55,787 nucleotides of DNA, taken from the NCBI GenBank assembly GCA_005772855.1, contig SXIK01000047.1, positions 1 to 55,787 of the forward strand, written 5' to 3'. Positions 24,711 to 47,653 of the stretch are shown in pieces (the stretch's first letter is position 1; each line of letters opens with the position of its first letter). This DNA is from Planctomycetia bacterium (GTDB taxonomy: Bacteria > Planctomycetota > UBA8108 > SXIK01). A program made the position numbers and the translations under genes. The notes under the pieces are model-generated. The model did no database searches. It saw only the letters and a program-made list of their open reading frames with translations, and was not told where the DNA came from.

Positions 24711-26312
24711 ATGAAATCTGAAGTACATGGCGGCTCCTTCAGCAAGCCTGAGAAGCCAGCATCACTCGCCGTAACCAGCCGTGAGGGCCGATCTTCGGCG
24801 GACGAATCGGGTAATGCCCCTTCGGAGGCAGAAAAGCCTCCGCAGCCAGCCGCGCAATTTGCGGCTACCGTGAGCGTGGTCGAGGCGCCCGAGCCCAGAA
24901 GCTTGCCCCTCCTCAGGGAGAACGTCGCCCCTGAGGACTGGGCGGACTGGCACTGGCAGATGCGAAACAGGATCCGTGATATTAACCTGCTCAAACAGTA
25001 CCTCCCCGGCCTCACCCGACTCGGGGAGCTCGAGAAGGTAATCGTGCGTTTCCCTCTCGCGATCACACCCTACTACCTTTCTCTGATAAGCGACGGTGAC
25101 ACCTCGGACCCCGTCTTCCTCATGAGCGTGCCACGCTCCGAGGAACTCTTGAATCCCCTCGAATTGCCCGATGATCCCCTCGATGAGGAGGCCGACATGC
25201 CGGTGCCGGGGCTCACGCACCGCTACTCGGACCGGGCGCTCATTGTGATCAGCGAGATTTGCCCGATGTATTGCAGGCACTGCACTCGTAAGCGCTTCGT
25301 GGGCGTGGAGGAGTCAGCGATCTCGGCAGATCGGCTCGCAAGTTACCTCGACTACATCCGCAACCATCCCGAAATCAAGGACGTGATCATCTCGGGCGGC
25401 GATCCGTTGAGCCTCACTGACAAGTCGATCGAGCGAGTCCTTCAAGGCCTGCGGTCCATTCCAAGCCTCGAGATCATTCGGATCGGGACACGCATTCCGG
25501 TCCTCATGCCCCAGAGAATCACGCCAGCGTTCTGCGACATGATCCAGCAATATCACCCCCTGTGGATCAACACACACTTCAACCACTCAAACGAGGTGAC
25601 GCCCGAGGCCGCTGCCGCGTGCGATCGCCTGATCCGCGCCGGAGTGCCGGTAAACAACCAGGCCGTGCTGCTGAAGGGGATAAACGACGACCCCGAGGTC
25701 ATGCTGCAGCTTTGCCGGGCCCTCTTCCGGGCTCGGGTGCGCCCCTACTACATTTACCAGTGCGACCTCACTCGCGGGGTCGAGCATTTCCGAACGCCCA
25801 TCAGCAGGGGCATCGAGATCATGGAGTACCTTCGTGGTCGACTGGGCGGCCTCGCAATTCCTCAGTTCATCGTCGACGCCCCGCATGGCGGCGGAAAGGT
25901 GCCCATCGGGCCCAACTACATCGTGAGTGTCTCCCCGACGCACACCGTGCTTCGAAACTACGAGGGATTGCTCGTGTCCTACCCGGAACCCGTGGCGCAC
26001 TCGACGCTGACCGTCGGCCGCAAGAAAAAGGAACGTTCCTGCCGGGGGGGCATTGCCGCCCTCGCCGCAGGCCAAGAGGACGCCATCGTGCCCGAGAAAT
26101 CCACCCGCATCGCGCGGCGTCGCTCGATCGCTCACGGCAAGAGCGCCCGCTTTCGCCCCGAGGGCTACAAGCAGAAGAGGCTACTTGCGGATCTGGTGGA
26201 TATGACCCCACCCGACTCCAGTGGCGAGAACAAGAACGGGAGCAAGCGTAACGGCGGATCGAACGGGTCACAGCCCAACGGCAAGGGACGCGGTGCGGCG
26301 CCCCGAGGCTGA
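24711..26312 (+). CDS. kamA: Lysine 2,3-aminomutase (radical SAM, PLP)
   Basis: A 533-residue enzyme expected to interconvert L-lysine and L-beta-lysine. The radical-SAM cluster motif is Cys184-x3-Cys188-x2-Cys191 (ICPMYCRHCTRKRF). GGDPLSLTD is the SAM-binding GGE-like motif. PLP Lys396 lies in APHGGGKVP, and the two acidic residues that read the lysine side-chain amine are retained (CDLTRGVEHFRT and the Asp of VDAPH), which favours lysine over glutamate as substrate. A Ser/Glu-rich N-terminus and a basic, Asn/Gly-rich C-terminal tail of 90 residues are additions. ATG 24711 has the Shine-Dalgarno GGAAGGCGG. The stop overlaps the next start (TGATG). EF-P beta-lysylation (EpmB) is an alternative, but no EF-P genes are here. 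Confidence 0.9.
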   Translation: MKSEVHGGSFSKPEKPASLAVTSREGRSSADESGNAPSEAEKPPQPAAQFAATVSVVEAPEPRSLPLLRENVAPEDWADWHWQMRNRIRDINLLKQYLPGLTRLGELEKVIVRFPLAITPYYLSLISDGDTSDPVFLMSVPRSEELLNPLELPDDPLDEEADMPVPGLTHRYSDRALIVISEICPMYCRHCTRKRFVGVEESAISADRLASYLDYIRNHPEIKDVIISGGDPLSLTDKSIERVLQGLRSIPSLEIIRIGTRIPVLMPQRITPAFCDMIQQYHPLWINTHFNHSNEVTPEAAAACDRLIRAGVPVNNQAVLLKGINDDPEVMLQLCRALFRARVRPYYIYQCDLTRGVEHFRTPISRGIEIMEYLRGRLGGLAIPQFIVDAPHGGGKVPIGPNYIVSVSPTHTVLRNYEGLLVSYPEPVAHSTLTVGRKKKERSCRGGIAALAAGQEDAIVPEKSTRIARRRSIAHGKSARFRPEGYKQKRLLADLVDMTPPDSSGENKNGSKRNGGSNGSQPNGKGRGAAPRG

Positions 26313-28312: not shown

Positions 28313-29682
28313 AACCCATGAGAATGGGCTTCAAGGGTTGGATCGGGTTGACCCTCCTTCTTGCCGGATGTGTGCCTTACGAGCCTCGCCCCCTTGATCC
28401 TGAAGACGAGTGGCGGCGCCTGGAGGGTTTGAGTCTCGACAACCTCAAGTCTCAAGGTGGGGCCAGCGGGATTGGGAACAGCGACCTGCCACCCTTTGAC
28501 TATTCCAACGGTCTCTCGAGCGATGAAGCCGCGAGCCTCGCCGTTGTATTGAATCCAGCGCTCCGGGCTTTGCGGCTCAGGGCGGGGATCGCGGACGCGC
28601 AGATCATCGACGCAGGCGTTCTCCCGAATCCCGAGCTCGATACGAAGTGGCTCTTGCCCACGAACGCCGCCGCATGGAAGGGGGAGGTCAATGCAGCCAT
28701 CGACCTCACGCAGCTCCTGCTGCGTCGGGGGCTCGAGAAGGAGCGTGCGCGCATTCGTGCCGAGGAGATCCGCTGGGACATCGCAGCCGAGGAGTGGAAG
28801 GTGGCGGCCCAGGCAAGGCTGGCCTGGGTCGATCTCATCTACGCCGATGAGGCGCTCACAGTCTTCAAGGAGACGCGCCAGATCCTCGCGCGCACGCTCG
28901 AAGGAGTGGAGGACCGCCGAAAGGCTGGCGACTCCAGCACGCTCGAAACGATCCTCGCAGAGACGGACCTCGCCGAGGCCGACCGTCAGGGTGTCCGCCT
29001 GCGGAGCATGCGCAGAATTACGCTTCAGTCGCTCAATACGCTCCTGGGGCTTCCGCCCCATCAAGACGCACGGATCGAGAAGCCTGCGAGTCCGCTCCTC
29101 TATGCGCCAACCCAGATCGACAGGTCCAGCCTGTTTGACCACCTGTGGCAGCGGCGCCCGGAGCTACTCGCAGCCGCAAAAGCCCACGAGGGAGCCGAGC
29201 GGGAGCTTCAGATCGCCTGCAGAAAGCAGTTTCCCGGCTTGAGGCTCGGCCCGAGCTTTGAGCGGGACGGAGGCAAGGACTTGTTGGGGTTCAACGCTGC
29301 GCTTGAGATTCCCATCTTCAACAGAAATCACGGCCAGATCGCCGAGAAAGCCGCGCTTCGAGACGAAAAGCTCGGCCTGTTCGAGGCAGAGCTCGCGGCA
29401 GCCCGTGCGGATCTCGAGAGCACCTTGACAATTCTCGAGGCCTCCGAGTCGGAGCTCAGGATCCTGTTCGAGGAGCTAGCCCCGCGCCTGGCACGGATGC
29501 TGGACCTGACCGAACGTGCGCTCAGGGCCGGGGAGGTGAGCCTCTTCGAGCTCCTCACAATGCAGCGGCGCCTTCTCACGTCACGTGCCGGGGTGACAGA
29601 GTCCCTTCGCGACTTCCACCGCGCCAGGATCGAAGTGGAGCGTGCGGCGGGGCCGAAGCTGGCAAAGGATGGTCCGCCATGA
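28309..29682 (+). CDS. TolC-like outer-membrane efflux lipoprotein
   Basis: A 457-residue outer-membrane factor. A lipobox (LLLAGC) after a short signal predicts lipidation at Cys near residue 22. The body is alpha-helical with the internal two-fold repeat of OEP proteins (LNPALRALRLRAGIADAQI, NPELDTKW, and later RPELLAAAKAHEGAERELQIACRKQFPGLRLGPSFER, GFNAALEIPIFNRNHGQI). The GTG start at 28309 overlaps the ligase stop by four bases. No RND, MFP or ABC exporter partner is adjacent, which is unusual. It may serve the product of the two upstream enzymes, using an inner-membrane partner encoded elsewhere. Confidence 0.87.
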   Translation: MKPMRMGFKGWIGLTLLLAGCVPYEPRPLDPEDEWRRLEGLSLDNLKSQGGASGIGNSDLPPFDYSNGLSSDEAASLAVVLNPALRALRLRAGIADAQIIDAGVLPNPELDTKWLLPTNAAAWKGEVNAAIDLTQLLLRRGLEKERARIRAEEIRWDIAAEEWKVAAQARLAWVDLIYADEALTVFKETRQILARTLEGVEDRRKAGDSSTLETILAETDLAEADRQGVRLRSMRRITLQSLNTLLGLPPHQDARIEKPASPLLYAPTQIDRSSLFDHLWQRRPELLAAAKAHEGAERELQIACRKQFPGLRLGPSFERDGGKDLLGFNAALEIPIFNRNHGQIAEKAALRDEKLGLFEAELAAARADLESTLTILEASESELRILFEELAPRLARMLDLTERALRAGEVSLFELLTMQRRLLTSRAGVTESLRDFHRARIEVERAAGPKLAKDGPP

Positions 29683-32767: not shown

Positions 32768-32920
32768 CTAGGTTCCCTCGTCGCCGGTATCCGTCGTCGA
32801 GGGCGCATGGAGGCGTCCGGCCGTTCGCGGCTTCGCAAGCACCTTGAAGAAGCAAAAGACAAGAAGGCCCAAGACGAATCCGTTCGATGCCAACATGAAG
32901 ATCCAGCCACCTGGGCTCAT
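32768..32920 (-). CDS. MetS-like small subunit of the NSS symporter
   Basis: A 50-residue protein with one transmembrane helix (IFMLASNGFVLGLLVFCFFKVLA) and a short basic and polar tail. Its ATG overlaps the stop of the NSS symporter gene (ATGA). Single-helix proteins encoded immediately after NSS transporters are known as the small subunit of MetP-MetS-type methionine/alanine importers, and position and topology fit. The exact family was not verified by alignment. Confidence 0.65.
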   Translation of the reverse strand: MSPGGWIFMLASNGFVLGLLVFCFFKVLAKPRTAGRLHAPSTTDTGDEGT

Positions 32921-34542
32921 TGTTTTTCCTCGGAGAAGTCGGGAAGCTCTTCGGGGCCGGACGTGTCGCGGGTCTCGGCCCCCCAACGCATTCCGGCGAT
33001 ATGGACCAGAATCAGCAGGAAAATCGCGATGACCCCGATGAGGAGGACGCCAAGGAGTGGAACTCCACCCTCTCCCAGCTGCTCCACGTAACCCGGCAGG
33101 CTCTTGTAGGCCCACATCCCAAAGACTACCAGCAAGTAAGTCGGGGTAATGTACCGAATCACGAAGGTAAAGATGCGAGGCAACCGCATCTCAGCGCCTT
33201 GCTGGGCAAATCGATGGCCCTTTTCCGCCCCGAACACCCACGCGTAGAGGATCACCTGAAGCGTCGCGAGCACGTAGATCAAGGCCGTACCAGCCCAGAA
33301 GTCCAGGGTGTCCAGTGCCACAAGGCCTTTCGAATAGAAAATCACGAACAGGGAGCCCAGCCCCGTGATCATGCCCAGAATGGCCACCGAGGCCCTTCTT
33401 CCAAGATCGAGCCCCTCTTCAAAAAACGCGATGGCCGGCTGAAGCATCGAGAGCGAGCTCGTGATCGCAGCCAAGAAGAGCATGAAAAACCAGATGAACC
33501 CGAAGAACGCGCCCCCGGGCATGTGGAGGAAAACGACGGGCAAAGTGTTAAAACCGAGGCCAAACGTCCCCCCCACTGTGCCTGCAGCGCCCAGGAAAAT
33601 GAAGGCCGCCGGGATCGTGATCAAACCTCCCAGGCAGACCTCGAAGAACTCATTGGTGGCGGACGCCGTGAGCCCGGAGAGGACGACATCGTCTCGTCGC
33701 TTCAGGTAGCTCGCATAGTTGATGATGACACCGAAACCGACCGAGAGGCTAAAGAAGATTTGCCCCGCGGCTTTCATCCAAACCTCCGGATCCGCCAGCG
33801 CCGAGAATACCGAATCGCCCGGCTTGAGCGGTTTGGGCTCCCACATGTAGGCAAGTCCGCCCAGTACGTTCTGATCCGGAAGCGAGGGGTCCGGCGTCCC
33901 GAGCGTCAGGACCCGCACGAGCACGATCAGCGCGCAGATGGCCATGGCCGGCATGGCCCAGGTGCAGAACTTCTCGATGCCCTTTGAGAGGCCGCGGTAA
34001 ATGAAGAAAAAATTTACGGCAAAAGTAATCAGCCAAAACACGACACTGACGTGCAGCTTTCCGTCCAGCATCAGCCCGTCTTGATCCGATCCCACGAAGT
34101 CGGCGAAGAACTTCTTGCTCTCCTCCGCCCATTTCGTGGGATCCTCTCCAAGGTTGATTTCACCCATCAGGTAGGAAAACGCGTATCCCAGGCACCAGGA
34201 CTCGATGTACACGTAGTACATGTAAATTACGACCGGGATGAGGAGCCCCAACACCCCCAGGTAGCGCCAAATGGGCCGGCGACCGAGCACTCCGAAGATC
34301 GCGGGGCACGAGTTAAACCCAAAGAGCCCTCCGTACTTGCCCATGCTCCACTCGGCCCAGCAAATCGGGATCCCCAGCAAGAGCAAGGCGCAGAAGTACG
34401 GGATCATGAACGCGCCACCCCCATTTCCCGCAGCGAGACCCGGGAATCTCAGGAAGTTCCCGAGCCCAACGGCCGAACCCGCCACCGCGAGAATCACACC
34501 GAGCCGTGAGGCCCAGGCTTCCCTGGGCCGCTTGCTTGCCAT
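32917..34542 (-). CDS. Sodium:neurotransmitter symporter family (NSS) transporter
   Basis: A 541-residue secondary transporter with 12 membrane segments, LeuT-fold. The N-terminal signature is WASRLGVILAVAGSAVGLGNFLRFP with the GNGGGAF unwound TM1 region that binds Na+ and substrate. GGLITIPAAFIFLGAAG and SSLSMLQPAIAFFEEG mark the later NSS helices. It probably imports amino acids with sodium. ATG 34542 follows a perfect AAGGAG. It begins 27 bases after the coiled-coil membrane protein gene and ends in an ATGA overlap with the small subunit, so it may be the tail of the PspA/AAA/ABC operon. The substrate cannot be read. Confidence 0.92.
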   Translation of the reverse strand: MASKRPREAWASRLGVILAVAGSAVGLGNFLRFPGLAAGNGGGAFMIPYFCALLLLGIPICWAEWSMGKYGGLFGFNSCPAIFGVLGRRPIWRYLGVLGLLIPVVIYMYYVYIESWCLGYAFSYLMGEINLGEDPTKWAEESKKFFADFVGSDQDGLMLDGKLHVSVVFWLITFAVNFFFIYRGLSKGIEKFCTWAMPAMAICALIVLVRVLTLGTPDPSLPDQNVLGGLAYMWEPKPLKPGDSVFSALADPEVWMKAAGQIFFSLSVGFGVIINYASYLKRRDDVVLSGLTASATNEFFEVCLGGLITIPAAFIFLGAAGTVGGTFGLGFNTLPVVFLHMPGGAFFGFIWFFMLFLAAITSSLSMLQPAIAFFEEGLDLGRRASVAILGMITGLGSLFVIFYSKGLVALDTLDFWAGTALIYVLATLQVILYAWVFGAEKGHRFAQQGAEMRLPRIFTFVIRYITPTYLLVVFGMWAYKSLPGYVEQLGEGGVPLLGVLLIGVIAIFLLILVHIAGMRWGAETRDTSGPEELPDFSEEKQ

Positions 34543-34569: not shown

Positions 34570-35523
34570 CTACTGCGTGGCCTTGATCGTCTGACTGCGA
34601 AGCAGCTCCGGCACGTGCTCGTCGAGCATCTCAATACCAGTGGCGAACCGTAGATCCGTCATCGTTTTCTCGGTGCTCATCATGCTGGAGGCGACTTGGT
34701 CCACCTGGCCCGAGATGAAATCGGGCTCCTGCCGATTGACGCCGAGCTCGCTGAGCGACCGGATCTTGCTTTCGAGCCGGTCGATCTCGAGCCCGACAAG
34801 CTCCGCGTTGTCGCGAGCCTTCTCAAAGTTACCGAGGCGCACCTTGCACGTCTCGACGTTGTCCTCGAGCGCCTTGCGCACCTTGTGCATATGCGGGTCC
34901 TGGATGTCGGCCGGAATCGACTTGAGCCGCCCATCAATCCGATCCGCCTCCTTACGCACCTGGTCCATGCTGGTCTTCTCGAGGAACTTGCCGAGCGAGT
35001 GTTGCGTGTAGAGAAGCCGCAGGAAGATCCAGAGCAGCCGGTCAAGCCCTTGAAGCTGGAGCGACTCGAGCGGGGGCGGGGAAGTCGCCTGGACCGGGTC
35101 CTTCATGGCCACCGAGAGTCGCCGAAGCTCGAGGCAACGGTCGCGCAATGCCTCAAAGCGTTGCAGTGCGGCGGACGGAAGGCTCTTGACGATTTGCTGC
35201 AAGATCTGTTCAGCGCTCTGGAAGCCATCGCCGCGAGTCACCTTGGCCTCTTGCGCCTCGACGTACCGCTGGTACTTCGGATGAGTGCCAAGCAATCCGA
35301 CGTAGGCGATCTCCCCCGCCAGCACCAGCGGCAGGAAAAACTCGGGCTTGCCGGTCAAGTAGGCAAACACCGAGGCTCCCCCGAAGAAAAGGAGGTTCCA
35401 CCGGTTCAGGAATGCTGACTGCAGGTACTTGCCGAGGGTCACTTCCAAGCTGCTCGATAAATTCGCTGTGCCGGATTGATTTCGCTGTCCGTGATTCCGA
35501 TTCCGACCCGGGCGAGCAAGCAT
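34570..35523 (-). CDS. Coiled-coil membrane protein of the PspA/ABC cluster, unknown
   Basis: A 317-residue protein with a short basic N-terminus and two adjacent membrane segments (LLFFGGASVFAYLTG, PLVLAGEIAYVGLLG), then a 230-residue cytoplasmic helical region. The C-terminal part is strongly coiled coil (RKALEDNVETCKVRLGNFEKARDNAEL and IDRLESKIRSLSELG). I do not recognise a named family. It starts 46 bases after the ABC ATPase gene. Its topology suits a membrane-bound partner or receptor for PspA-like filaments or the AAA motor; that is inference from context. Confidence 0.8.
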   Translation of the reverse strand: MLARPGRNRNHGQRNQSGTANLSSSLEVTLGKYLQSAFLNRWNLLFFGGASVFAYLTGKPEFFLPLVLAGEIAYVGLLGTHPKYQRYVEAQEAKVTRGDGFQSAEQILQQIVKSLPSAALQRFEALRDRCLELRRLSVAMKDPVQATSPPPLESLQLQGLDRLLWIFLRLLYTQHSLGKFLEKTSMDQVRKEADRIDGRLKSIPADIQDPHMHKVRKALEDNVETCKVRLGNFEKARDNAELVGLEIDRLESKIRSLSELGVNRQEPDFISGQVDQVASSMMSTEKTMTDLRFATGIEMLDEHVPELLRSQTIKATQ

Positions 35524-35569
35524 TTTGGATCACCCGGACTCACTCCATCTCGCGTGAGAGTCCCAAAGT

Positions 35570-36487
35570 CTAACCTTTCGTCGCCTGCCTTTCCCCTTCA
35601 ATCCGGATGATGAGGTCGCGGATGGACGAGACCGCGTCCTGAAACCCGGGCTCCCGCTGCATGTCCCTCGAAGGTCTCCTCGACGGTTCAAGGCGCATCT
35701 CCTTCAGGATCGTTCCGGGAGAGTTCGAAAAGATGTGCACACGATCACTCAGGAAGACCGCCTCCTCGATCGAATGCGTGACAAAGAATACGGTAGCCTC
35801 GGCATCCCGCCAGAGCTCCAGCAGGAGGTCTTGCATGCTCATGCGAGTCAGCGGATCAAGGGCCCCGAAGGGTTCGTCCATGAGGATGATGCGAGGCTTC
35901 AGGATCAAGGTGCGGGCGATAGCGACGCGCTGACGCATGCCGCCAGAAAGCTCGTGCGGGTACTTTCTCGCGTCCTTCTCGACGTTCAGGCCAACCTTGC
36001 GGATCCAGTGGCGCCCGCGGACCTCTCGCTCCGAGCGCGGGACACCGTGGCATTCAAGCCCGAATGCGACGTTGGAGAGGACCGTGCGATGGTCGAAGCT
36101 CGTGTAGTCCTGAAAGACCATTCCGCGGTCGGCGCCAGGGCCCATGACTCCCTTGCCCAGCACGCTGACCGAGCCGGAGGTCGGCGGGTGCTGAGGCTCA
36201 AGGCCCGCGATCAGACGAAGGACGGTGCTCTTTCCGCATCCGCTCGGACCCAGGATTGAGATGAACTCGCCCTTTCCGTGAAGGTCATCCACGACGAAGG
36301 AGACGTCCCTGATCGCCGTGAACGCATTCGGCTTACCTGCGTTGTAGGTCTTGGTGACATTACAAAAATCGACCACACGGGGTCCAGCGATGGCCGTGGG
36401 AACACGGCCCGACTCAATGACATCCCCCATTCCTGTTGCCTCGGCGCCTGGCTGCGCTGGCTGACCGGAAGCTGCTGCCCCTTTCAT
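35570..36487 (-). CDS. ABC transporter ATPase, NrtD/TauB/SsuB type
   Basis: A 305-residue nucleotide-binding subunit. Walker A is GPSGCGKST, the Q-loop is VFQDYTSF, the signature is LSGGMRQRVAIA, Walker B is ILMDEPFGALD and the H-loop is VTHSIEEAV. All are intact. An extra 35-residue Ala/Gly/Pro-rich N-terminus precedes the core. The start ATG 36487 overlaps the permease stop (ATGA). A longer open frame reaching 37066 is only the shadow of the permease gene. It energises import by the adjacent permease and the membrane-anchored binding protein. Confidence 0.93.
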   Translation of the reverse strand: MKGAAASGQPAQPGAEATGMGDVIESGRVPTAIAGPRVVDFCNVTKTYNAGKPNAFTAIRDVSFVVDDLHGKGEFISILGPSGCGKSTVLRLIAGLEPQHPPTSGSVSVLGKGVMGPGADRGMVFQDYTSFDHRTVLSNVAFGLECHGVPRSEREVRGRHWIRKVGLNVEKDARKYPHELSGGMRQRVAIARTLILKPRIILMDEPFGALDPLTRMSMQDLLLELWRDAEATVFFVTHSIEEAVFLSDRVHIFSNSPGTILKEMRLEPSRRPSRDMQREPGFQDAVSSIRDLIIRIEGERQATKG

Positions 36488-37293
36488 GCACCCCCCCGGC
36501 CATTGCGGTGAGAGAAGAGCTGGCATTGCACCCAGAAGAGACTTCGGTCGATGGCGTAGGCAATCAACGGGATCAGGAGCAGGACCAGGATCGTGTGGGC
36601 CTTGGGCCCCCGCCGCTGGGACAGATTGATGATCTGCCCGAGTCCGCCGGCCTCTCCCTCGAGCTGCACGCTCTCGACGAGCATGATGTAGCCAAACGCG
36701 ATCCCGAAGAGAACCCGTAGCGAGTTGAAGATGGACGGCAAGGCCAGGGGAAAGAGGACCTTGGAGATTACCTGCCACCTCGACGCACCGAGCGTGTAGG
36801 CCGTGTCGACATAGTGGCCTCCGACATCCTTGATGGCCTGAGTAGCATCCACCATCACAAAGGCCACGCAGGCAATGAATATGAACATGATTTTTTGAGC
36901 CTCGCCAATCCCGAAGAGCGCAAAGGTTAGCGGGATTACAGCCGCAAGCGGGGCATTGCGGCCAAAAAGCGTCATGGGCAAGAAGAACGCCTCGATGCGG
37001 GTGAAGCAGCCGCACAGTACGCCCAACGAGACGCCGACCACCGCCGCCAGCGCAAATCCAAGACACACGCGCCAGAGGCTCGCAGCAAAGTTGCGGGTGA
37101 GCGCACGATCAAACCAGAGCGATGGAAAGGTCGCCAAGGTCTCGGATGGACTCGTGAGAACGAGGGGACTCAGGATGCGCTCCTCGTTTTCGCCGCGAGT
37201 GGCGTACCACCAGACGCCCAGAAAGAAAAGAGCGCAAGCCGCTCCACAAATAAGCGTCTTCCAGTACGGTATCTCTTCGCGGATCTTGAACAT
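36484..37293 (-). CDS. ABC transporter permease, NrtB/TauC/SsuC type
   Basis: A 269-residue inner-membrane protein with about six membrane segments. The first is ICGAACALFFLGVWWYA. The coupling (EAA-like) loop is YVDTAYTLGASRWQVISKVLFPLALPSIFNSLR, and LLVGV-like helices and FGIAFGYIMLVESVQLEGEAGGLG match the nitrate/sulfonate/taurine importer group. Its ATG starts right after the TGA of the binding protein (TGAATG), and its stop overlaps the ATPase start. The imported substrate is not evident. Confidence 0.92.
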   Translation of the reverse strand: MFKIREEIPYWKTLICGAACALFFLGVWWYATRGENEERILSPLVLTSPSETLATFPSLWFDRALTRNFAASLWRVCLGFALAAVVGVSLGVLCGCFTRIEAFFLPMTLFGRNAPLAAVIPLTFALFGIGEAQKIMFIFIACVAFVMVDATQAIKDVGGHYVDTAYTLGASRWQVISKVLFPLALPSIFNSLRVLFGIAFGYIMLVESVQLEGEAGGLGQIINLSQRRGPKAHTILVLLLIPLIAYAIDRSLFWVQCQLFSHRNGRGGA

Positions 37294-39042
37294 TCATTGC
37301 TTCTCGGCAGAATAGACCTTGACCTCGACACGGCGGTTTCTGACGTGGTTGAGAGGGTCCTCCTTGTCGACGGGGACATCCCAGCCCTTACCCTCGGTCG
37401 AGAATTGGTTCGGGTCGAGCTTGGGGTACTTGCGCACCAGGGCCTCCTTCACGGCACTCGCCCGCTGCGCGGAGAGTTGCTTGACGAGGTCCGCGGAGAC
37501 CTGCCCCCTCATCGAGGCGTCCGTGTGACCCACAATCACGATCCGGGCCATGCCGAATTTGCCCACGAGGTCACCGATGCCAACGAGTACGTTCTCCACG
37601 TTCGGATCGTAAAGCTCCTCGACTGCCTTGCCGTTCACTTGCTTCAGGACCTTCTTGCTGAGGTCCCAGCTGTTCGGGAAAAACTGGATCACCACGGTGT
37701 TCGTGAGGATCTCGTCCGACTCGCCTCGAATCTCGCCAACCGTCTTCGGCGTGAACGCAATCTGATACTCATCCTTCTGGGACGAATACTTTGGCTCCTT
37801 GCCGAGCTTCTCGATGAAAGTGAAGTCCATCACCTGGTCGAAGGAGACCGGCGAGTGCTTGATGCTGTTGACCCTTCGATAAAGGTAGTAGCTCTGGCGC
37901 CAGACCCGCTCGAAATTCGCGGGGTTGTTCGCATTCATGAAGAATTGGTAATTCTCGGCCCAGTTGGTGTTGTGGGCATCGGCGAACATGTTGATGGTGT
38001 CGGTGGCGGGGATTTGATATCCCTGCGCCATGAGATCGGCACAGCGCTGCTTCTTCGCGGGATCCTTGAGCTGCTCCATGCCCTCGAAGATACCCCTGAC
38101 GAGAGACTCGATGATCCCCGGATGGTCCTTGGCGAAGTCGGCTCGCGCGAACCAAACGTCCGCGATCAGCTTGTTGGCCGTGGCGGTCGTCACAAGCAAC
38201 TCGTTGCCCGAGACTTTCGACAAGTTGTAGATGTCTGGCGCCCACGAAACGGCGGCGGCGAGGTCGCTCTTGGAGTTGAATGCCGCTGCGGCCTGAAACG
38301 CGTCCTCGGTGAACACCATGTTCACCTCGGCCGGCTGCACTCCACCAGCGACGAGCATGTTCAGCGCGAAATAATGGGACGGGGAGTTCTGCGCGAGCAC
38401 CAGCTTCTTTCCGCGTAGGTCGCTGACGGTCTTGACCAGGCTCTTGCGGACAATGATCCCGTCGCCCCCATTCGACCAGTCCACCTGCTGGTAGATCCGG
38501 GGCATCACGCGTGAGTCCCTTGGCCTGCCAGTCGCGTCGACGATGCGTTCGAGGAAGAGGGGCACCATGTCGAGGGTTGCCCAGCCGATGTGGATGTCGC
38601 CGGTGGAATAGGCATCCTGCATGGTGATCGGGTTGTCGATCAAGACCAGTTCGATCTTGAACTCCTTGCCGTCGGGCGTCTTCCAGACCTTGGCGCCCTT
38701 GAAGCCGTCGTTCGCGAGGATGATGGGTCCCCAACCTGCCCACACGTTGAGAGCGAAGCGCACGGTGTTGTCCACCATCGGCTTGTACGCCGCCGTGCCC
38801 TTGATCTCCGGGAGCCTTTCTGTCGGCCTGAAGCTGTACTCCTTGACGGTCGTAACGCTGTTCGAGTCGGGTGCCTCACTCGGGATGCTGATCGGCTCGC
38901 TCGCCTTGCCCGCCACGCCCTGGCCTCCCTGCGGCCCTCCTTTCGGCGCCAGGACGTCCATCTTCATCACCGCGAAGGTGATGAGCCCTCCGACGACAAG
39001 GAACAGCGCGATGTAGAACGGTGCTTTGGGTTGTCCAGGCAT
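37294..39042 (-). CDS. Membrane-anchored NMT1/NrtA-like binding protein fused to an OmpA peptidoglycan-binding domain
   Basis: 582 residues. One N-terminal membrane anchor (FYIALFLVVGGLITFAVM) is followed by a linker. A periplasmic-binding domain of the NMT1/THI5/NrtA kind covers about residues 85-430 (VRFALNVWAGWGPIILANDGF, IDNPITMQDAYSTGDIHIGWATLDMVP, LRGKKLVLAQNSPSHYF, VSWAPDIYN). The C-terminal 120 residues are an OmpA-like domain: IVIVGHTDASMRG, LSAQRASAVKEAL, then the Asn-x2-Asn/Arg block HVRNRRVEVKVY that binds meso-diaminopimelate. A substrate-binding protein fused to a peptidoglycan anchor is unusual, and it would fix the ABC importer to the cell wall. The next gene (the permease) follows without a gap. 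Confidence 0.9.
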   Translation of the reverse strand: MPGQPKAPFYIALFLVVGGLITFAVMKMDVLAPKGGPQGGQGVAGKASEPISIPSEAPDSNSVTTVKEYSFRPTERLPEIKGTAAYKPMVDNTVRFALNVWAGWGPIILANDGFKGAKVWKTPDGKEFKIELVLIDNPITMQDAYSTGDIHIGWATLDMVPLFLERIVDATGRPRDSRVMPRIYQQVDWSNGGDGIIVRKSLVKTVSDLRGKKLVLAQNSPSHYFALNMLVAGGVQPAEVNMVFTEDAFQAAAAFNSKSDLAAAVSWAPDIYNLSKVSGNELLVTTATANKLIADVWFARADFAKDHPGIIESLVRGIFEGMEQLKDPAKKQRCADLMAQGYQIPATDTINMFADAHNTNWAENYQFFMNANNPANFERVWRQSYYLYRRVNSIKHSPVSFDQVMDFTFIEKLGKEPKYSSQKDEYQIAFTPKTVGEIRGESDEILTNTVVIQFFPNSWDLSKKVLKQVNGKAVEELYDPNVENVLVGIGDLVGKFGMARIVIVGHTDASMRGQVSADLVKQLSAQRASAVKEALVRKYPKLDPNQFSTEGKGWDVPVDKEDPLNHVRNRRVEVKVYSAEKQ

Positions 39043-39210
39043 TTTGTGATCTCAGTCCTTTCAATTGCGTTCAGACACACGAGCCAGGATGCGCTTCTCC
39101 TGGAACTCCGCCAACTCCGCCTCGAGCGATACCGAAACTGAACTTCGGTGCCGCTTTCCAGATGTGAGCGCGGCGCCAACAAGCCAGAGACCCAAAGGCT
39201 GTCAACACTC

Positions 39211-39591
39211 TCACCCCCGGAAGGCCGTTCTTGGCCTGGCCTTCTGCATGGAGCTCAAGATCTGCAGGATGTCGTACGCCGTCAGCTCGCAGAGGAGCTG
39301 CGTGACTTTCGCATGTGTCGGATCGTCGAGCGCTGGCTCAACTTCTTTCATGAGCTTCACGAGTCGGTCTTCCTGCGCCTTCACCTCTGCGTCATTGACC
39401 TGGCCGTCGGCGAGCGCCTCCAGGAAGGAGGCGAGCTGCCGGGCGTAGCCGTCAATCAATGGGGCTCCGGACTTGTCGTCGAACCATTGGATGCGCTTCG
39501 TGGAGCTCTTCACCACGGTGGTGCCTCGCGACGCTGCTTTCGCCCTGGCCGTGGGTCCCTTGAAGGCCTTCTTCGTTTTCTTCTTCGCCAT
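39211..39591 (-). CDS. 126-residue protein of the PspA/AAA cluster, unknown
   Basis: A small soluble protein. The N-terminus is very basic (AKKKTKKAFKGPTARAKAASR). The rest is helical and acidic (FLEALADGQVNDAEVKAQEDRLVKLMKEVEP, LLCELTAYDILQIL). ATG 39591 lies five bases after the AAA ATPase stop, so it is cotranscribed. I do not recognise a family. Its position between the AAA gene and the anchored binding protein suggests an adaptor between motor and transporter; that is inference. The 168 bases downstream of it hold no gene. Confidence 0.75.
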   Translation of the reverse strand: MAKKKTKKAFKGPTARAKAASRGTTVVKSSTKRIQWFDDKSGAPLIDGYARQLASFLEALADGQVNDAEVKAQEDRLVKLMKEVEPALDDPTHAKVTQLLCELTAYDILQILSSMQKARPRTAFRG

Positions 39592-39596
39592 CTTAT

Positions 39597-41408
39597 TCAC
39601 TCTTCGAGGACTTGCCGAATCGCCACCATGCGCTCCTGCAGCCGGGATCGGCCATCCGGTTGCTGCACCTTCGTCTTGAAATCCGGCGGGAGGAAGCTGA
39701 GCTGCGTGCACTCGAGCACCGCCGCAAGCTCCTGAAGCTCCTTTTCAAGCCCCTGCGCCGACGGAATAAACTCCGTGAGTGCCTCCTCAAGGTCCTTCCT
39801 CTGGACGTCCTCCCTCCTCGCTGTCAACGCTCGCCTCCTCGCTGTAACGACGATACTCTCGATGTCGGCCCCGCTCAGCCGCCGATCCGCAGGCAGGCTC
39901 GGGAGTTGCTCCCTCGTGATGTTCACCTTGTTCTTGCGCGCCATCGACAGGAACATGCTTGCCACCTCGGCCTCATCAATTGGGTAAAAGAGTGGAATGT
40001 GAACTTCCGCACGGCCCTGGCGCTTGATATCGATTGGAAGCAGATCCGGTCGACACGTCAGCAGCATCCAGACGATCTTTCCCCTGTAGCGGGTGTCCCC
40101 CATCTGGCTCGCAATCATGCTAAAGACCCGGCTCGAGGTGCCAGAGTCGCCTTCCGCCTGCCGATTCCCGAGCGCGGCATCGGCCTCGTCAATAATAACC
40201 ACGACCGGCCCGAGCGACCGCAGCACGGTCAGGACCTGCTCAAGGTTGCCTTCCGTCTCGCCCACATATTTTGAGCGGAAGTTGCGGAGCTTTACACACG
40301 GGATGGCCATCGAACCGGCATAGCACTCTGCAAGGAAAGTCTTTCCCGTCCCCACCGCGCCGCAGAAAAGGTAGCCCATCGGGGCCGAATCGAGCTTCCC
40401 ACGCACCAGGAGATCAGCATCTTCTCTCAGGCGAGCCTTGGCGGCATCTTGGCCCACGACCAGGTCGAGCGTGTGCTCGGGCTCGACGAACTCGAGGAGT
40501 CCCCGGCACTGCCGTTCGATCATCGTCTTCTTGATTTTCCGAAATCGCTCGGCGTCAATTCGTAGGCCCGAGCGCTTCGCCTGCGACAGGAGAACGTTCA
40601 AGCCAACGAGGCTGAGGCCGTTGGAGACCTGTGCAAGCTCCGTCGTCGAGAACTCCGCCAGTCGCGCAAGGTCGCCCCCGGCTTTTTCGCCGTCGGTAAA
40701 CCATCTGGAGAAGCTTTCCCGCTCGTCCCGACCCGGCATCGGGATCTCGATCGAGGCCACGTGTGGGCTCTGCACGAGCCGCTCGTTGACCTCGGAGAGG
40801 CGATCGGCGACCAGCACAAAGGCCATGTTGATGCGCTTGATGTAGGGGTTCTGCGCCCAGCTCAGAAAGCGAACCAGGTTCGAGCCTTGACCGCGAGCGA
40901 GAGAGTCAATGTCTCCCGACGGTACGAGGTATTGCGCGTAGTCAAAGAAGATCCCGAGCGATTTTCGTTTCGTCGGATCCTCTTCAAGAAGGCACGCGTC
41001 GATGAATCGGTCAAGCCACAGGAGTAGCTTCTCGGTGTCACGCGGCCAGCTCGATGGCTCCCCAAGCCCTGGAGCCACTTGCTGAATCATGGCCTTCAAG
41101 CGCCCGGCATCGCCGCCAGCCTGGGGACGTATACCCCGGGCAAGGTCGTGCTCAAGAATGACATCCCAGGAGCCAAAGACCTGGCCCGCCAGAAACTCCG
41201 AGAGACTCACGTAAGTCTCCACCTCGCCACTGCCCACCCCCGGAGTGACCGTACGGACAAGGTCGTGCACATTTCCGTGCAGCACAAAGACACATGTCGT
41301 TCCAGAAAAATAGAGGTTTGCAAGCTCGCGAGCCCAGGGTGGGAACCCGACGGGCAACTCGGCAACAAGTCCGCTGTCGCCGAGAGAGCCTGTGGAAGCG
41401 CCGCTCAT
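39597..41408 (-). CDS. AAA ATPase, Ycf46/Vps4-like, with degenerate N-terminal AAA domain
   Basis: 603 residues. The C-terminal AAA domain (about 320-560) is complete: Walker A GAVGTGKT with Lys356, the pore loop KYVGETE, Walker B VVVIIDEADAALG, and sensor and Arg-finger region around LTCRPDLLPIDIKRQGRAEVHI, then a C-terminal helical lid (RRLSGADIESIVVTARRRAL). The N-terminal 300 residues resemble a second AAA domain without Walker A (VFVLHGNVHD, then IFFDYAQYL and FVLVADRL), the layout of Ycf46-like ATPases. It sits 48 bases after pspA. By analogy with Vps4 and ESCRT-III it may remodel or disassemble PspA filaments; that is inference. Confidence 0.88.
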   Translation of the reverse strand: MSGASTGSLGDSGLVAELPVGFPPWARELANLYFSGTTCVFVLHGNVHDLVRTVTPGVGSGEVETYVSLSEFLAGQVFGSWDVILEHDLARGIRPQAGGDAGRLKAMIQQVAPGLGEPSSWPRDTEKLLLWLDRFIDACLLEEDPTKRKSLGIFFDYAQYLVPSGDIDSLARGQGSNLVRFLSWAQNPYIKRINMAFVLVADRLSEVNERLVQSPHVASIEIPMPGRDERESFSRWFTDGEKAGGDLARLAEFSTTELAQVSNGLSLVGLNVLLSQAKRSGLRIDAERFRKIKKTMIERQCRGLLEFVEPEHTLDLVVGQDAAKARLREDADLLVRGKLDSAPMGYLFCGAVGTGKTFLAECYAGSMAIPCVKLRNFRSKYVGETEGNLEQVLTVLRSLGPVVVIIDEADAALGNRQAEGDSGTSSRVFSMIASQMGDTRYRGKIVWMLLTCRPDLLPIDIKRQGRAEVHIPLFYPIDEAEVASMFLSMARKNKVNITREQLPSLPADRRLSGADIESIVVTARRRALTARREDVQRKDLEEALTEFIPSAQGLEKELQELAAVLECTQLSFLPPDFKTKVQQPDGRSRLQERMVAIRQVLEE

Positions 41409-41456
41409 CGAGCGTGATCCGGGCGTGGAGGGTGGGAGGAGCCCGAATCCACTTTT

Positions 41457-42218
41457 TTATGCGTTCTCCTTCGAGGCCCGCCTCGACTTTGAAGCCGGGC
41501 CGAGCGCCTTCACCTCTTCCTTCACGCCCACCGTGGCGGGCGTGACGAGGCCCATCTGCACCTCGAACTCGCGCAGCGCTTGATCTGCCATCACCTTTTC
41601 CATCGCCTGCTCGCGCTTGATATCGGCGATTCCTTCGCCCGAGAGGTCGGCGGCGACGCGGGCCTTGGCGCGATTGAGACCGATCTTCTCCTGAATAACC
41701 GTCTCGATCTCGCCAAAATCGGTGGTGACGTCGAACTTGAAGCTGCTGGCGAGCTTCGCCATCTCCGCCTCGGCCTTGCTCATCTTGATTTCGGCGTCGT
41801 ACTTCTGAATCTTTTCGCGGACCTGCCCGAGCCTCGAGCTCGCATGCTTGATCTTGTCGAGGTTGTTCGTGTAGGCCTCCTCGTACATCGCGAGCTGGCC
41901 TTCGTTCTCGGAGAGCTGCTGCTTCGCCTTTTGAAGCTCAAACGCAAACTTCGCCGCCGTGTCGCGGTCACCCGCCTGCAGGTAAGCCTTCACCTTGCCT
42001 TCGAGGTTCGATACGTGCGCCTTGTCATTGGCAACCTGCCGGGACACACGCTCAACGAGCGCACGGTACTGCTCCAGCCCTTCCCTGCCCTCCTTGAGCT
42101 GTGCGACTGCGCTGTCGTATTCGTACTGCATTTGCGCAATTGGATCGGAAGTCCAGAAGTAGTTGGCCAGCTTGTTGATCTGGGCCCTCAGGGTTCGCCA
42201 GAGTTTGCCGAGAATCAT
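41457..42218 (-). CDS. pspA: PspA/IM30 (ESCRT-III-like) membrane-remodelling protein
   Basis: 253 residues, nearly all helical. The N-terminal amphipathic helix and the family block INKLANYFWTSDPIAQMQYEYDSAV are followed by a long coiled-coil hairpin (VSRQVANDKAHVSNLEGKVKAYLQAGDRDTAAKFAFELQKAKQQL) as in PspA/Vipp1. The C-terminal tail (VGVKEEVKALGPASKSRRA) is basic. PspA maintains inner-membrane integrity under stress and belongs to the ESCRT-III superfamily. It is the first gene of the long minus-strand cluster, so its promoter lies in the 212-base gap shared with the phosphatase gene. No pspF, pspB or pspC is present, unlike the enterobacterial system. Confidence 0.92.
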   Translation of the reverse strand: MILGKLWRTLRAQINKLANYFWTSDPIAQMQYEYDSAVAQLKEGREGLEQYRALVERVSRQVANDKAHVSNLEGKVKAYLQAGDRDTAAKFAFELQKAKQQLSENEGQLAMYEEAYTNNLDKIKHASSRLGQVREKIQKYDAEIKMSKAEAEMAKLASSFKFDVTTDFGEIETVIQEKIGLNRAKARVAADLSGEGIADIKREQAMEKVMADQALREFEVQMGLVTPATVGVKEEVKALGPASKSRRASKENA

Positions 42219-43924: not shown

Positions 43925-46900
43925 CTACTCGGCGCAGACGCTGTCGCAGCCCTGGAACTCAACGCAGCCGATTCCGGCCGCGTGAGGCAGGCCCCGTTGG
44001 AAAAGGTAGGTGAGGCCGAGCAGTACGTCGGCGACGTTCACGGAAGCGTTGCCATCCCAATCCAGGACACGTTGGTTGGCAGCATCCTCCAGCCCCTTGG
44101 CGCTGCAGGGGCCATCTAGGAAGCCGCCAAAGAGCATCTGCAGCATGCGGATTGCGTCGGTCACATTGATCTTGCCATCGCGGTTCGAGTCGCCGGGAAC
44201 AGCTCCGAGCTTGCTCAAACTGTCCGCCTTGCCGGGACTGCCGCCCACGGCGGAGCTCAAGCCCCAGCGGGCGGCTTCGCCCAGCGTGCTGGCGTCACCG
44301 AGCGGATCCTTGTTGACGATCGAGTGGCCAATACCTTTCGCCTCCGGATACCAATTCCCGTCGTATTTGAAATCGAAGATCTTCTGCTCAAAGTCGCCCC
44401 TGAGTGCGAGAAACTCGCCCACGTCTGAAAGCGCTCCTTCGAAGTCCCCAGCAACAAGGAACCCCTCCGAACCGTAGCGGGCTGCGAACGCAATACGGTC
44501 CCGTGTCACAAGGACCCGTTCACCCGGCTTGAGGCTCGGCACCGCGACTCCGTCAAAGGTGAAAGCGATACCCTTTGTGAAGGTGATCCCCGCGAGGGAA
44601 AGAGGCTCCGAACCAATGTTCATGAGCTCCACAAACTCCATCCGAGTCGTGTTGAACTTCTTCCCTGGATCTTCCTCCGGGGTGGGCGGGGCCGGAAAGT
44701 ACATCACCTCTGTAATCGTGATGGTCGGAATCTTCGTGTAGTACTTTGCTTCGACCGGGCTGCTCCAGATTCCATCCTCGACAAGACGGGCCCTGGCCAC
44801 AATCCGGGTCTGGCCCTGGATCGTGACCGGATCGGAATAGATGCTTGCGGTTGGAGCCGGGTCTCCGCCGAGCGCCCTTGGATCCGACCCATCCAGCGTG
44901 TAGTAGATTGTGGCGGGCCTGTTGACTGAGAGCTTCACCTGAGAGCCAGGGTTCACGAAGCCCGCGGGCGGATCGAACTCGGGACTCCCGGCGAACTCCG
45001 AATCGATCCAGTCGGCCCGGGTCGCCAGCCAGTTCTTCAGGTGGTCGACCTCGCCCTGAAAGCCGCCAACATGCCCCTCAAGTTCCGGCCAGCGCTTCAC
45101 GTTGCGATCCGCCGCGCCACCGGAGCTCAGCTCGATGGCCCAGGCATCAATCTGGGCCAGAATATTCGCTGTTGCCAGCGGACCCTTCCTCAGTTCTCGC
45201 CAGCGACCCTTGTAGGCGAGGTTCCAGGGCGTGTTGGACAGGGGCGGGCTGTTGTTGAAGAGTAAAGAGTACCAACTTCCGCTTTCTCCGGATGCAAAGT
45301 ACTGGGTGCCACTGTTGTTGGCGTTGTGGTATCCCAGCGGGTCCGAGGAGCGGTCGTCATCGGCGAATCCCCCCATGGCGCGGTCAAAATCCCAAACGGG
45401 TCCCATGACAAGCGGACCATTGCGGTCCTTGTAGAAGTAGGCGCTCAGGCGGAAAGCATCTACATTTTTTGTATACCAGCAGAGAATGTGGTGATCAATC
45501 CATGCCGTAAAGTCTATGTAATCGTTGTCCTCTTGACGCCCAATCTGTGGGTTCAATGAAGCCACCATCTGGTCCAGGAACCTGCGTATGTAGGCCCTCT
45601 GCGCCGGCACCGTACCACTGGGATGAGCCAGGACGAGGTCCGGATACCCCCCGCCCGCAATGGTAACCTCGTCCCCGTCAACGTTGTCGCGCTTCAAAAT
45701 GTAGCCCCCCGTGACCTCGGGTTCGGACCTGTCGCGAGGCAGGAGACTGGTGATGTTGATCCTTTCAGGGCTCTGTTTCATTCTCTCCATGAAGGCGTAG
45801 GTACCGAAATAATGCGTTTCGGTCAGCGGGCCTTTCCCGGGATTAAAAAAGCACTCAACATACTTCGTCCGGGCCGCGTAGCGCCCGCACTCCCGGCTCA
45901 TGAAATAGGCGACTGGATTCCTCATGTTGATGCGGTCAAAGATGTCCCCACCAAACATGACAAAGTCTGACTCTCTCGGAAAACCGAAGATATTGACTTG
46001 CTTGTCCTCTCCTTGAGCGTCATTGATCTCGAGGTTGAACCCAAACTTTGGCAAACCACAGGTGCTCCGGCCGCGCTGACGGAACTGCATGGCGCTGGAG
46101 AGCTCGGGCTCATCGATCATCACTGCGTTGCCGTCCTTGCCGGGAGTGATTATCAGAACATGCCCTCGTGAGTAGTCTGCGCCACAAGCCCCGATCCCAT
46201 TACCCAGGGCCAAGACAACCACAAGAGGCAGGTTGGAGGTGAACGCGGCGACCTTCGGATCGGCGATAACAAACGTGTTGCGCTCCGTGGGCCCAGGCGC
46301 CATTCCTTCCTTGAATACTCGAGCGGTAATCCGCACGGCGCCCTTCACTGCGATGGGAGCGGAGTAGAGGAGCGACGTCTCGCGTGGAGTGCTGCCGTCA
46401 ACTGTATAGCGAATTACTCCGCCGGGTAGATCTGTAAAAAGCTCCACCTGGCGGGAGTCGACGTACATGCCGCTCGGGAGCGAAAACGTGGGCTTGGGCG
46501 CCGCCTCGGGAAACCCTTTGCCATTCTGTCTTCCGGGTGTCGACACAGGAAAGTACCAGCGAACTTCCGGTCGGAATTCGTCGAGGTCCACCGCCTCCAT
46601 CTCGGGCAGCAGGAAGAAGTCCGAGTCGTCCGTCGAGACGTTGAGACCCTGGATCGCGAGAATGTTCTCGCCTACCTTGAGGCCTCCGAGCACGTTGGAA
46701 ATATCAAACTCCTCGAACTCCTGGGCCCCATGAGCGCCGGTCGCGCTGGAGCGCCAGTCGATCGTCTGGGGGGCGTTCGCGCTGCCGACAACTTGCCCAT
46801 TCACATAAGCCACAAAGCCGTCATTGTAACGCACCCTTAACTTCAGAACGTCGATCTTCGCTGGATCGGCAACGTCGAAGGGAACGCGAACAAAAATGCT

Positions 46901-47554
46901 GGAGTTCACATTTCGCATTTCGGCAGCCACGTCAGTTTTCACAAGCTCGAGCTCATTCGACGACACCCCGTAACCGATCGCCGTCGTGCCCTTGCGCCAG
47001 GACGAAGCATCAAAGTCGAGCAGAGTCCAACCGAGACCCAGGTCTCCGGAGCTGGGCACCGACACGCTGGCGGGAGCACCTACCTTCAGCACCTCAAAGG
47101 AGGCGGAGCCCGTGCCGACTCCATAGGAGACATCGGGCTGCTGAGGTGGGTAATTCTCCAGGCTCGAGACGATCGTCGTTCCATCCTGGGCGACCAAGTA
47201 GATCGAGTCGCCACTCTCTGCCAGCTTGAAATTCGTATGCAGGGCAAGGGTGGGGTCGACCAGGTTCTTCCCCGAGCAAAACACGAGCAGGAACCGCCCG
47301 GGCTCGAGACTCACTGCCGGAAACTTCCATTGCCTGGGCTCCTGGATGTCATCCGTCAGGTAGTAGCCGTCCAGGCTGACCTCGGAATCGCCCAAGTTGA
47401 ATAGTTCTACCCAGTCCGGCGAGTCGCGTTCCTCGTCGCGCAAGGCGTTGACGTTGTTCGCCATGAGCTCGGTCAGGATGACCCCTTCAGCCGCGCTCAA
47501 GGGACCAAAAGAGAGGAGAATCGATGACGCAAGCAACAAAGGTCGCAATTTCAT
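43925..47554 (-). CDS. CotH-kinase-family surface protein with lamin-tail and chitobiase-like domains
   Basis: 1209 residues from ATG 47554 (AGGA eight bases upstream), with a signal peptide (LRPLLLASSILLSFGPLSA). Domains in order: lamin-tail domain (VILTELMANN, PDWVELFNLGDSEVSLDGYYL), a beta-sandwich, a chitobiase C-terminal-like domain (GGVIRYTVDGSTP), the CotH kinase-like domain (GGYILKRDN, HHILCWYTKNVDAF, GPVWDFDRAMGG), a second chitobiase-like domain (IYYTLDGSDP), a second lamin-tail domain (RMEFVELMNIGSEPLSL) and a dockerin-like pair (GDSNRDGKINVTDAI, DWDGNASVNVADVL). CotH kinases phosphorylate extracellular proteins in spores; the target here is unknown. It is convergent with the phosphatase gene (6-base gap). 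A 12-bp dyad lies 100 bases upstream. Confidence 0.9.
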   Translation of the reverse strand: MKLRPLLLASSILLSFGPLSAAEGVILTELMANNVNALRDEERDSPDWVELFNLGDSEVSLDGYYLTDDIQEPRQWKFPAVSLEPGRFLLVFCSGKNLVDPTLALHTNFKLAESGDSIYLVAQDGTTIVSSLENYPPQQPDVSYGVGTGSASFEVLKVGAPASVSVPSSGDLGLGWTLLDFDASSWRKGTTAIGYGVSSNELELVKTDVAAEMRNVNSSIFVRVPFDVADPAKIDVLKLRVRYNDGFVAYVNGQVVGSANAPQTIDWRSSATGAHGAQEFEEFDISNVLGGLKVGENILAIQGLNVSTDDSDFFLLPEMEAVDLDEFRPEVRWYFPVSTPGRQNGKGFPEAAPKPTFSLPSGMYVDSRQVELFTDLPGGVIRYTVDGSTPRETSLLYSAPIAVKGAVRITARVFKEGMAPGPTERNTFVIADPKVAAFTSNLPLVVVLALGNGIGACGADYSRGHVLIITPGKDGNAVMIDEPELSSAMQFRQRGRSTCGLPKFGFNLEINDAQGEDKQVNIFGFPRESDFVMFGGDIFDRINMRNPVAYFMSRECGRYAARTKYVECFFNPGKGPLTETHYFGTYAFMERMKQSPERINITSLLPRDRSEPEVTGGYILKRDNVDGDEVTIAGGGYPDLVLAHPSGTVPAQRAYIRRFLDQMVASLNPQIGRQEDNDYIDFTAWIDHHILCWYTKNVDAFRLSAYFYKDRNGPLVMGPVWDFDRAMGGFADDDRSSDPLGYHNANNSGTQYFASGESGSWYSLLFNNSPPLSNTPWNLAYKGRWRELRKGPLATANILAQIDAWAIELSSGGAADRNVKRWPELEGHVGGFQGEVDHLKNWLATRADWIDSEFAGSPEFDPPAGFVNPGSQVKLSVNRPATIYYTLDGSDPRALGGDPAPTASIYSDPVTIQGQTRIVARARLVEDGIWSSPVEAKYYTKIPTITITEVMYFPAPPTPEEDPGKKFNTTRMEFVELMNIGSEPLSLAGITFTKGIAFTFDGVAVPSLKPGERVLVTRDRIAFAARYGSEGFLVAGDFEGALSDVGEFLALRGDFEQKIFDFKYDGNWYPEAKGIGHSIVNKDPLGDASTLGEAARWGLSSAVGGSPGKADSLSKLGAVPGDSNRDGKINVTDAIRMLQMLFGGFLDGPCSAKGLEDAANQRVLDWDGNASVNVADVLLGLTYLFQRGLPHAAGIGCVEFQGCDSVCAE

Positions 47555-47653
47555 GTCAATTCCTGACACTACAAGTGTCTTCGATACGCCGCAGATCGGC
47601 CTGGACAAGACCAGGCCGCCATGCAGCCAACCACAGCTCAAAAGAGAGAATGA

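Follow-up and report, generated by a model that had tools for sequence, protein, structure and literature searches.

Operons that combine PspA/Snf7 with an AAA ATPase carrying an inactive N-terminal copy, an ATP-binding cassette (ABC) ATPase, a permease and a PBPB-OmpA protein were described by Ravi et al. (2024, mSystems, PMC11237479, section 18), with OGG56892.1 as an example protein and the proposal that they tie ATP-dependent membrane remodelling to solute transport; how PspAs without an associated AAA work is stated there as unknown. Our subject is a run of seven minus-strand genes at positions 34570-42218 of contig SXIK01000047.1, whose 55,787 nucleotides (nt) we call the window, and which is contig 9 of the 244 contigs of a 5.0-Mb Planctomycetota assembly. 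According to the list of open reading frames the run encodes PspA, a double-AAA ATPase, a 126-amino-acid (aa) protein (p126), a solute-binding protein (SBP) that also carries an OmpA domain (SBP-OmpA), a permease, an ABC ATPase and a helical protein with two transmembrane (TM) segments (p317). The original prediction could not name such a system, but the combination is already in PMC11237479: as far as the class is described there, the locus shares all five component types, namely PspA, a double AAA with an inactive first copy, an ABC ATPase, a permease and PBPB-OmpA. The system is known in outline as a prediction, and the window locus is a full-length member of it. Measured against the main text of Ravi et al., in which we found no co-occurrence numbers, p126, ABC-less form or tail motif, what is new here is the co-retention of the genes when they are scattered, an SBP-OmpA clade without ABC genes, p317 as a putative bridge and a tail motif on PspA. 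The "Snf7 homologs with a TM segment" of that text may be our p317, which differs from them in not being detectably PspA-like by profile. In the literature outside subscription journals and preprints we found no experimental work on the system.

The run can also be compared with better known systems. With the ESCRT-III/Vps4 machinery of archaea and eukaryotes (CdvB/CdvC) the module shares an ESCRT-III-fold filament protein, with a motif in its tail as candidate AAA handle, and an AAA with the Vps4-like pore loop SKYVGETE, whereas its AAA is nearest to Afg2/CDC48, has a degenerate AAA N-terminus and not MIT, and is coupled to an ABC importer and to peptidoglycan. The classical Psp systems (PspFABC, LiaFSR, ClgR-PspA-PspMN) likewise have PspA as a membrane-associated stress protein, but the module adds a putative wall-bound receptor and an AAA motor, and no Pfam domain of PspB, PspC, PspF, Toastrack or LiaF occurs in the run or in its scanned immediate flanks. 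The NitT/TauT importers (NrtABCD, TauABC, SsuABC, TIGR03427) use an SBP, a permease and an ATPase of the same class, but in the module the SBP is an OmpA fusion with an anchor at either end. Our favoured reading, to which we give a probability of about one half, is that of an ESCRT-III-like module in bacteria whose receptor/importer, anchored to the wall and responsive to solute, would control PspA via p317.

The seven genes are a real, conserved unit. The same genes in the same order and on the same strand are found in six further Planctomycetota contigs (L002-L006 and L008), and another locus (L007) has the run without AAA and p126. The closest relatives detected are Planctomycetota metagenome-assembled genomes, in a contig scan that is tuned to close relatives and is uninformative on distant ones. 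An all-against-all comparison of the open reading frames in the locus neighbourhoods gave no widely conserved gene outside the seven, so that PspA and p317 mark the ends of conservation and the metallophosphatase gene upstream and the SNF symporter gene downstream probably lie outside the module. The latter, a SNF-type sodium symporter gene on the same strand (32917-34542), starts 27 nt after p317; it was considered as an eighth member and ruled out because it is not conserved beside the module in relatives.

The families also occur together across the phylum. Among 392 sampled Planctomycetota genomes, on which all phylum-wide counts are based, SBP-OmpA is present in 45 and p317 in 40, and 35 have both where 4.6 would be expected (hypergeometric p 2e-35, a value that disregards relatedness). 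The SBP-OmpA count covers full-length matches with a broad alignment, including the clade II described below; a few matches of 140-221 bits (e.g. in G032, G106, G118 and G309) resemble other SBPs and were left out. When genome families are counted instead, SBP-OmpA is found in 20, p317 in 18 and both in 16, with 3.6 expected (p 6e-13, assuming 99 families hand-counted from the tables). A PF04012 match is present in 37 of the 45 SBP-OmpA genomes and 35 of the 40 p317 genomes, compared with 101/392 overall, and 41 of the 48 genomes having SBP-OmpA or p317 have a close relative of the AAA. The closed, single-contig genome G313 has a member of every one of the seven families, spread over three loci far apart (L052, L095 and L096), with SBP-OmpA and permease at 8.50 Mb, p317 and ABC ATPase at 0.34 Mb and PspA, AAA and p126 at 0.57 Mb, and the other sampled members of its family (f29) are without SBP-OmpA and p317. 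As G313 keeps all seven families unlinked, linkage alone is an insufficient explanation. The claim of the original prediction that the genes form one system is thus borne out by conserved order and co-occurrence: the neighbourhood search across genomes shows that the set recurs and is not unique to this genome, and PspA/AAA and the ABC genes are seen together across the phylum.

Module genes regroup freely among loci. Beside the window type, PspA-AAA-p126-SBP-permease-ABC-p317, there are loci with PspA-SBP-permease-ABC-p317-AAA, with PspA-SBP-permease-ABC-p317 and the AAA elsewhere, with PspA-p317-AAA and neither SBP nor ABC nearby, and, without ABC, with PspA-SBP-p317-AAA or PspA-AAA-p317-SBP. 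Counting immediate same-strand neighbours by family or lineage, with the seven close-relative loci taken as one lineage each, the adjacencies are SBP-permease 21, ABC-permease 21, ABC-p317 19, AAA-PspA 15, AAA-p126 13, PspA-SBP 12, AAA-p317 9, SBP-p317 4 and PspA-p317 3. The AAA-PspA pair also occurs with no p317 or SBP nearby (L096, L098 and L100), and p126 is absent from many loci. It is p317 that adjoins the envelope half as well as the filament half, and a role as bridge fits since its neighbours are ABC, AAA, SBP or PspA. In one genome (G138, L064:7463-11011) the SBP-OmpA genes are tandem-duplicated within the module. Elsewhere, in L115 (G106:C97), three distant SBP-like genes are clustered with a permease and an ABC ATPase, and G106 also carries a module-type PspA with a KTIGP tail at another locus (L137), possibly a further variant.

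SBP-OmpA has an N-terminal TM anchor without a lipobox, a NitT/TauT-type solute-binding domain at about residues 85-400 and a C-terminal OmpA domain at about 480-576; the profile matches are to TauA (6ssy, E 3e-11, a TauA/SsuA-type domain) and OmpA (3td3, E 7e-14). The NrtA-like binding protein with an OmpA domain and a membrane anchor that had been proposed is therefore confirmed, with NMT1 and OmpA in one protein behind an N-terminal TM segment. In 29 divergent homologues R527 of the OmpA-domain motif LSxxRA is invariant and D508 of HTD nearly so, and both residues align with 3td3. The conserved Asp and Arg of OmpA domains bind the diaminopimelate of peptidoglycan.

In a maximum-likelihood tree of 58 SBP-OmpA sequences two clades part with support of 100/100: clade I, whose 38 rows include the window, and clade II, which has 20 rows. 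In clade I a permease and/or ATPase gene lies within 6 kb in 29/37 cases, and 4 of the 8 misses are within about 0.4 kb of the locus end. In clade II the corresponding number is 0/19, to be read with the limits that several of these loci lie near contig ends and that the permease and ATPase searches used profiles made from clade I systems. In L078 (5520-10815), read at sequence level, a PspA-like gene, SBP-OmpA, p317 and AAA follow one another at distances of less than 50 nt, leaving no space for ABC genes, and L083 (8039-12932) has a similarly tight PspA/p317/AAA operon, again with its SBP-OmpA from clade II and without an ABC transporter. These two clade II loci keep the full PspA/p317/AAA set, and in four others p317 is kept, whether or not PspA is. 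At the genome search threshold of E 1e-20 no permease relative was found in the clade II genomes G114, G141, G146, G184 and G205; G131 has a weak permease match only, on another contig, and the ABC-like match of 203 bits near L077 falls short of the threshold set for ABC, and no module permease adjoins it. The PspA-like gene of L078 is preceded by a von Willebrand-A-like gene, as judged by eye. The cleft-like motifs conserved in the two clades differ, being NVWAGW, DWSNGGDG and QNSPS in clade I and EYAGYAG, SRGADG and QFTEADFF in clade II. Because the pocket, the wall anchor and the PspA/AAA/p317 partners are kept, the transporter-less receptor is best read as a sensor, with the limit that many clade II genes stand alone. 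These ABC-less operons favour a receptor role, in which the job of SBP-OmpA would not be uptake alone. The original prediction had allowed for either of two roles of the ABC module, solute transport or signalling by solute binding; it is the signal side that operons of SBP-OmpA, PspA, p317 and AAA without ABC have strengthened.

In the window form the importer appears to be intact. The permease is of the NitT/TauT type with the EAA-like loop AYTLGASRWQ...FPLALP in the alignment, and the ABC ATPase has Walker A (GPSGCGKST), signature (LSGGMRQR), Walker B (ILMDEP) and H-loop (TH), so that SBP, permease with EAA loop and ATPase with complete motifs are all present, as is characteristic of NitT/TauT importers. 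No substrate can be assigned to the SBP since all NCBIfam scores, for nitrate, taurine, sulfonate and urea-type equivalogs, are far below the cut-offs, the best being TIGR03427 with 68 bits against 334.

PspA has an N-terminal amphipathic helix alpha0 and a C-terminal tail ending ...KALGPASKSRRASKENA. Its profile matches the Vipp1/PspA structures 7o3w and 6zvr over positions 1-187 (E 5e-9 to 6e-8), and its Pfam score is above the PF04012 cut-off of 33.9, in agreement with the earlier placement in the ESCRT-III superfamily; it is the only PF04012 match in its genome. In the tails of module PspAs (compared in L002-L101; 41457-41520 in the window) the linker after the core carries [KR]x[LMI]G, most often with P next and in most cases no further than 15 residues from the C-terminus, and some of the proteins terminate exactly in KTMG. 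We find the motif in about 39 of the 43 subfamily PspAs. The script count is 40/43; its matches in L055 and L078 fall inside a helix, the motif of L067 sits further in, and L007 has DRLGP. L055, L078 and L092 have tails of an alternative type, RQ(K/R)I(A/S)E. As controls, the motif is present in 1/15 generic PspAs of the phylum (subfamily score <40) and in 3.7% of shuffled tails. The PspAs of L055 and L078 fall below the PF04012 cut-off. MIM motifs are linear motifs on ESCRT-III-fold proteins, and by this analogy the tail [KR]x[LMI]G(P) is a candidate docking site for the AAA or an adaptor.

The AAA has an intact C-terminal module, with Walker A GAVGTGKT, Walker B VVIIDEAD, the pore loop SKYVGETE and an arginine-finger region RQGR, and both the aromatic pore loop and RQGR are conserved in the alignment. 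Its N-terminal ~310 residues form a degenerate AAA-like module with a weak match to CDC48 AAA domains (E 2.5e-5), which agrees with the inactive N-terminal copy of section 18 of PMC11237479. The nearest solved structures are Afg2/CDC48 (E 1.5e-31 in a PDB search), so the label Vps4-like is a loose one. Of the proposed Ycf46/Vps4-like identity the AAA family resemblance and the pore loop hold, but not the MIT domain, which is not among the 60 matches listed for the degenerate N-terminus, where Pfam gives AAA domains only. The small p126 has a basic N-terminal tail and three helices in the AlphaFold model (45-62, 67-87 and 90-118; predicted local distance difference test, pLDDT, 69 overall and ~85 in the helices). 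No relatives outside the module were found for it in Pfam, NCBIfam, PDB sequences or Foldseek; the idea that it is a known adaptor or resembles MIT proteins was dropped, there being no sequence or fold match. The model of p317 (pLDDT 83) has helices at 13-29, 32-52, 122-155 and 182-236, that is, a TM hairpin and long helices. On average the hairpin is net positive on both flanks and neutral in its loop, which should place the helices in the cytoplasm, and p317 is predicted to be a two-TM hairpin with cytoplasmic ends. A PspA/ESCRT-III paralogue was rejected at the profile level (probability 2.8% in the PspA profile comparison), and Foldseek gave no significant fold match in the PDB, the best (E 0.06) being to BAR-type coiled coils, with no ESCRT-III among the 50 matches listed.

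Put together, the favoured reading would work as follows. SBP-OmpA would sit with its N-terminal helix in the inner membrane and its OmpA domain on peptidoglycan, presenting the solute-binding domain, and in the window form would feed an apparently intact NitT/TauT-type ABC importer. The cytoplasmic helices of the two-TM p317 would link this envelope part to PspA, which would polymerise on the cytoplasmic face of the membrane. The double-AAA, often with p126, would bind the exposed PspA tail, extract subunits and turn over the filaments. As output the membrane would be stabilised or remodelled locally, depending on solute occupancy and/or the state of wall and membrane. We infer here that a complex forms, that PspA is the AAA substrate, that p317 is an adaptor and that the solute is a signal. 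Several observations weigh against such a reading. SBP-OmpA can exist outside the module, as the clade II genomes G141, G146 and G184 are without PspA, p317 and AAA matches; 7/48 genomes have no AAA match; and the AAA does not adjoin PspA in L007, L069, L070, L074 and L075. Furthermore p317 matches no known adaptor, the tail motif is clade-wide and could reflect ancestry and not function, and the genome-level p-values carry the neglect of relatedness noted above. A stronger version, in which the SBP-OmpA receptor, with or without importer, acts via p317 to switch PspA assembly and AAA-driven disassembly, so that this would be a solute-gated bacterial ESCRT whose PspA carries its own AAA docking motif, we put forward only tentatively.

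Other explanations can be held against the same data. The module could be primarily a nutrient importer, with PspA, AAA and p317 just protecting or organising the membrane patch of a wall-tethered transporter, a reading close to the transport link proposed in section 18 of PMC11237479. The well conserved, fully functional-looking permease and ATPase motifs and the commonest adjacencies (SBP-permease, permease-ABC and ABC-p317) point that way, but clade II, with 19/19 SBP-OmpA genes lacking a neighbouring permease or ATPase, partners kept in the six loci described and five genomes without a permease match, makes us regard it as doubtful. The additions made here appear to shift weight from a transport accessory toward wall-anchored, solute-responsive control of PspA. 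In a different account the AAA and p126 would be an assembly or quality-control chaperone for a p317/ABC complex, with PspA a mere scaffold and not the AAA substrate. That the AAA is nearest to the unfoldases Afg2/CDC48 among solved structures and that it adjoins p317 in 9 and p126 in 13 families or lineages would suit it; the AAA is, however, more often beside PspA than beside p317, also where neither p317 nor SBP is near, and the PspA tail motif is conserved, so we think this unlikely.

If SBP-OmpA were instead a mechanical tether gauging the distance between wall and membrane, with a vestigial solute-binding domain, one would expect the inner-membrane helix and peptidoglycan-binding domain that homologues with complete ends do have, as well as the invariant R527. 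The conservation of cleft-like motifs clade by clade is unexpected for a vestigial pocket and renders the idea very unlikely. A chance neighbourhood of unrelated operons, which could be suspected from the 168-nt gap between p126 and SBP-OmpA, the 46-127 nt gap between ABC ATPase and p317 and the many loci without p126, is scarcely believable given the order conserved without conserved flanks, the co-occurrence and the co-retention of scattered genes in G313.

The gene calls are collected in Table 1. All seven open reading frames described in the original prediction are present and two start sites have been corrected. Pfam and NCBIfam give known families for 5/7 proteins (PspA_IM30, AAA, NMT1 with OmpA, BPD_transp_1 and ABC_tran) and no match for p126 and p317.

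Table 1. Genes of the run in the window, listed from PspA to p317
Gene	Length (aa)	Coordinates	Strand	Basis of the call
PspA	253	41457..42218	-	PF04012 52 bits; Vipp1/PspA structure matches; tail motif
Double-AAA ATPase	603	39597..41408	-	Pfam AAA 77 bits; alignment; PDB best Afg2/CDC48
p126	126	39211..39591	-	orphan; AlphaFold three-helix domain; adjoins AAA gene
SBP-OmpA	582	37294..39042	-	Pfam OmpA 37 and NMT1 31 bits; 6ssy and 3td3 matches
ABC permease	269	36484..37293	-	BPD_transp_1 58 bits; SaoP/TauC/NrtB-like
ABC ATPase		35570..36487	-	ABC_tran 96 bits; TauB-like
p317	290, from probable start GTG 35442	34570..35442	-	orphan; alignment of relatives; AlphaFold model

The ABC ATPase most likely starts at ATG 36487, though the open frame continues to 37066; from this start the gene overlaps the stop of the permease gene by 4 nt (ATGA). 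From its relatives, p317 probably starts at the GTG given in the table and not at ATG 35523, which would give 317 aa. The remaining gaps are 48 nt (PspA-AAA), 5 nt (AAA-p126) and 0 nt (SBP-permease), and that between ABC ATPase and p317 is 46 or 127 nt by the p317 start chosen. Promoter-like sites number 3 with 1.6 expected, none of them within the run on its own strand, and terminators are not in excess, an outcome that is uninformative.

Elsewhere in the window, a tight plus-strand run at 24693-29682 encodes a lysine-2,3-aminomutase-like radical SAM protein, a 666-aa protein with two ATP-grasp regions (the C-terminal one of D-Ala-D-Ala-ligase type) and an outer-membrane efflux protein, and is a possible small-molecule pathway. 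Two very large and probably secreted proteins are encoded as well, an S8 peptidase that carries fn3 domains (2359-aa frame, 13307-20386) and a CotH/LTD protein of 1238 aa (43925-47641).

Planctomycetota are known for their unusual membrane architecture. The module bears on the question of how bacterial PspA/Vipp1 polymers are taken apart where there is no general Vps4, and to which signal they respond. It contributes a genetically linked AAA and candidates for both the docking motif and the receptor, which makes the question directly testable with seven genes. If the solute-gated form of the reading is true, the module would be a case of transmembrane signalling from a periplasmic solute and the cell wall to an ESCRT-III polymer.

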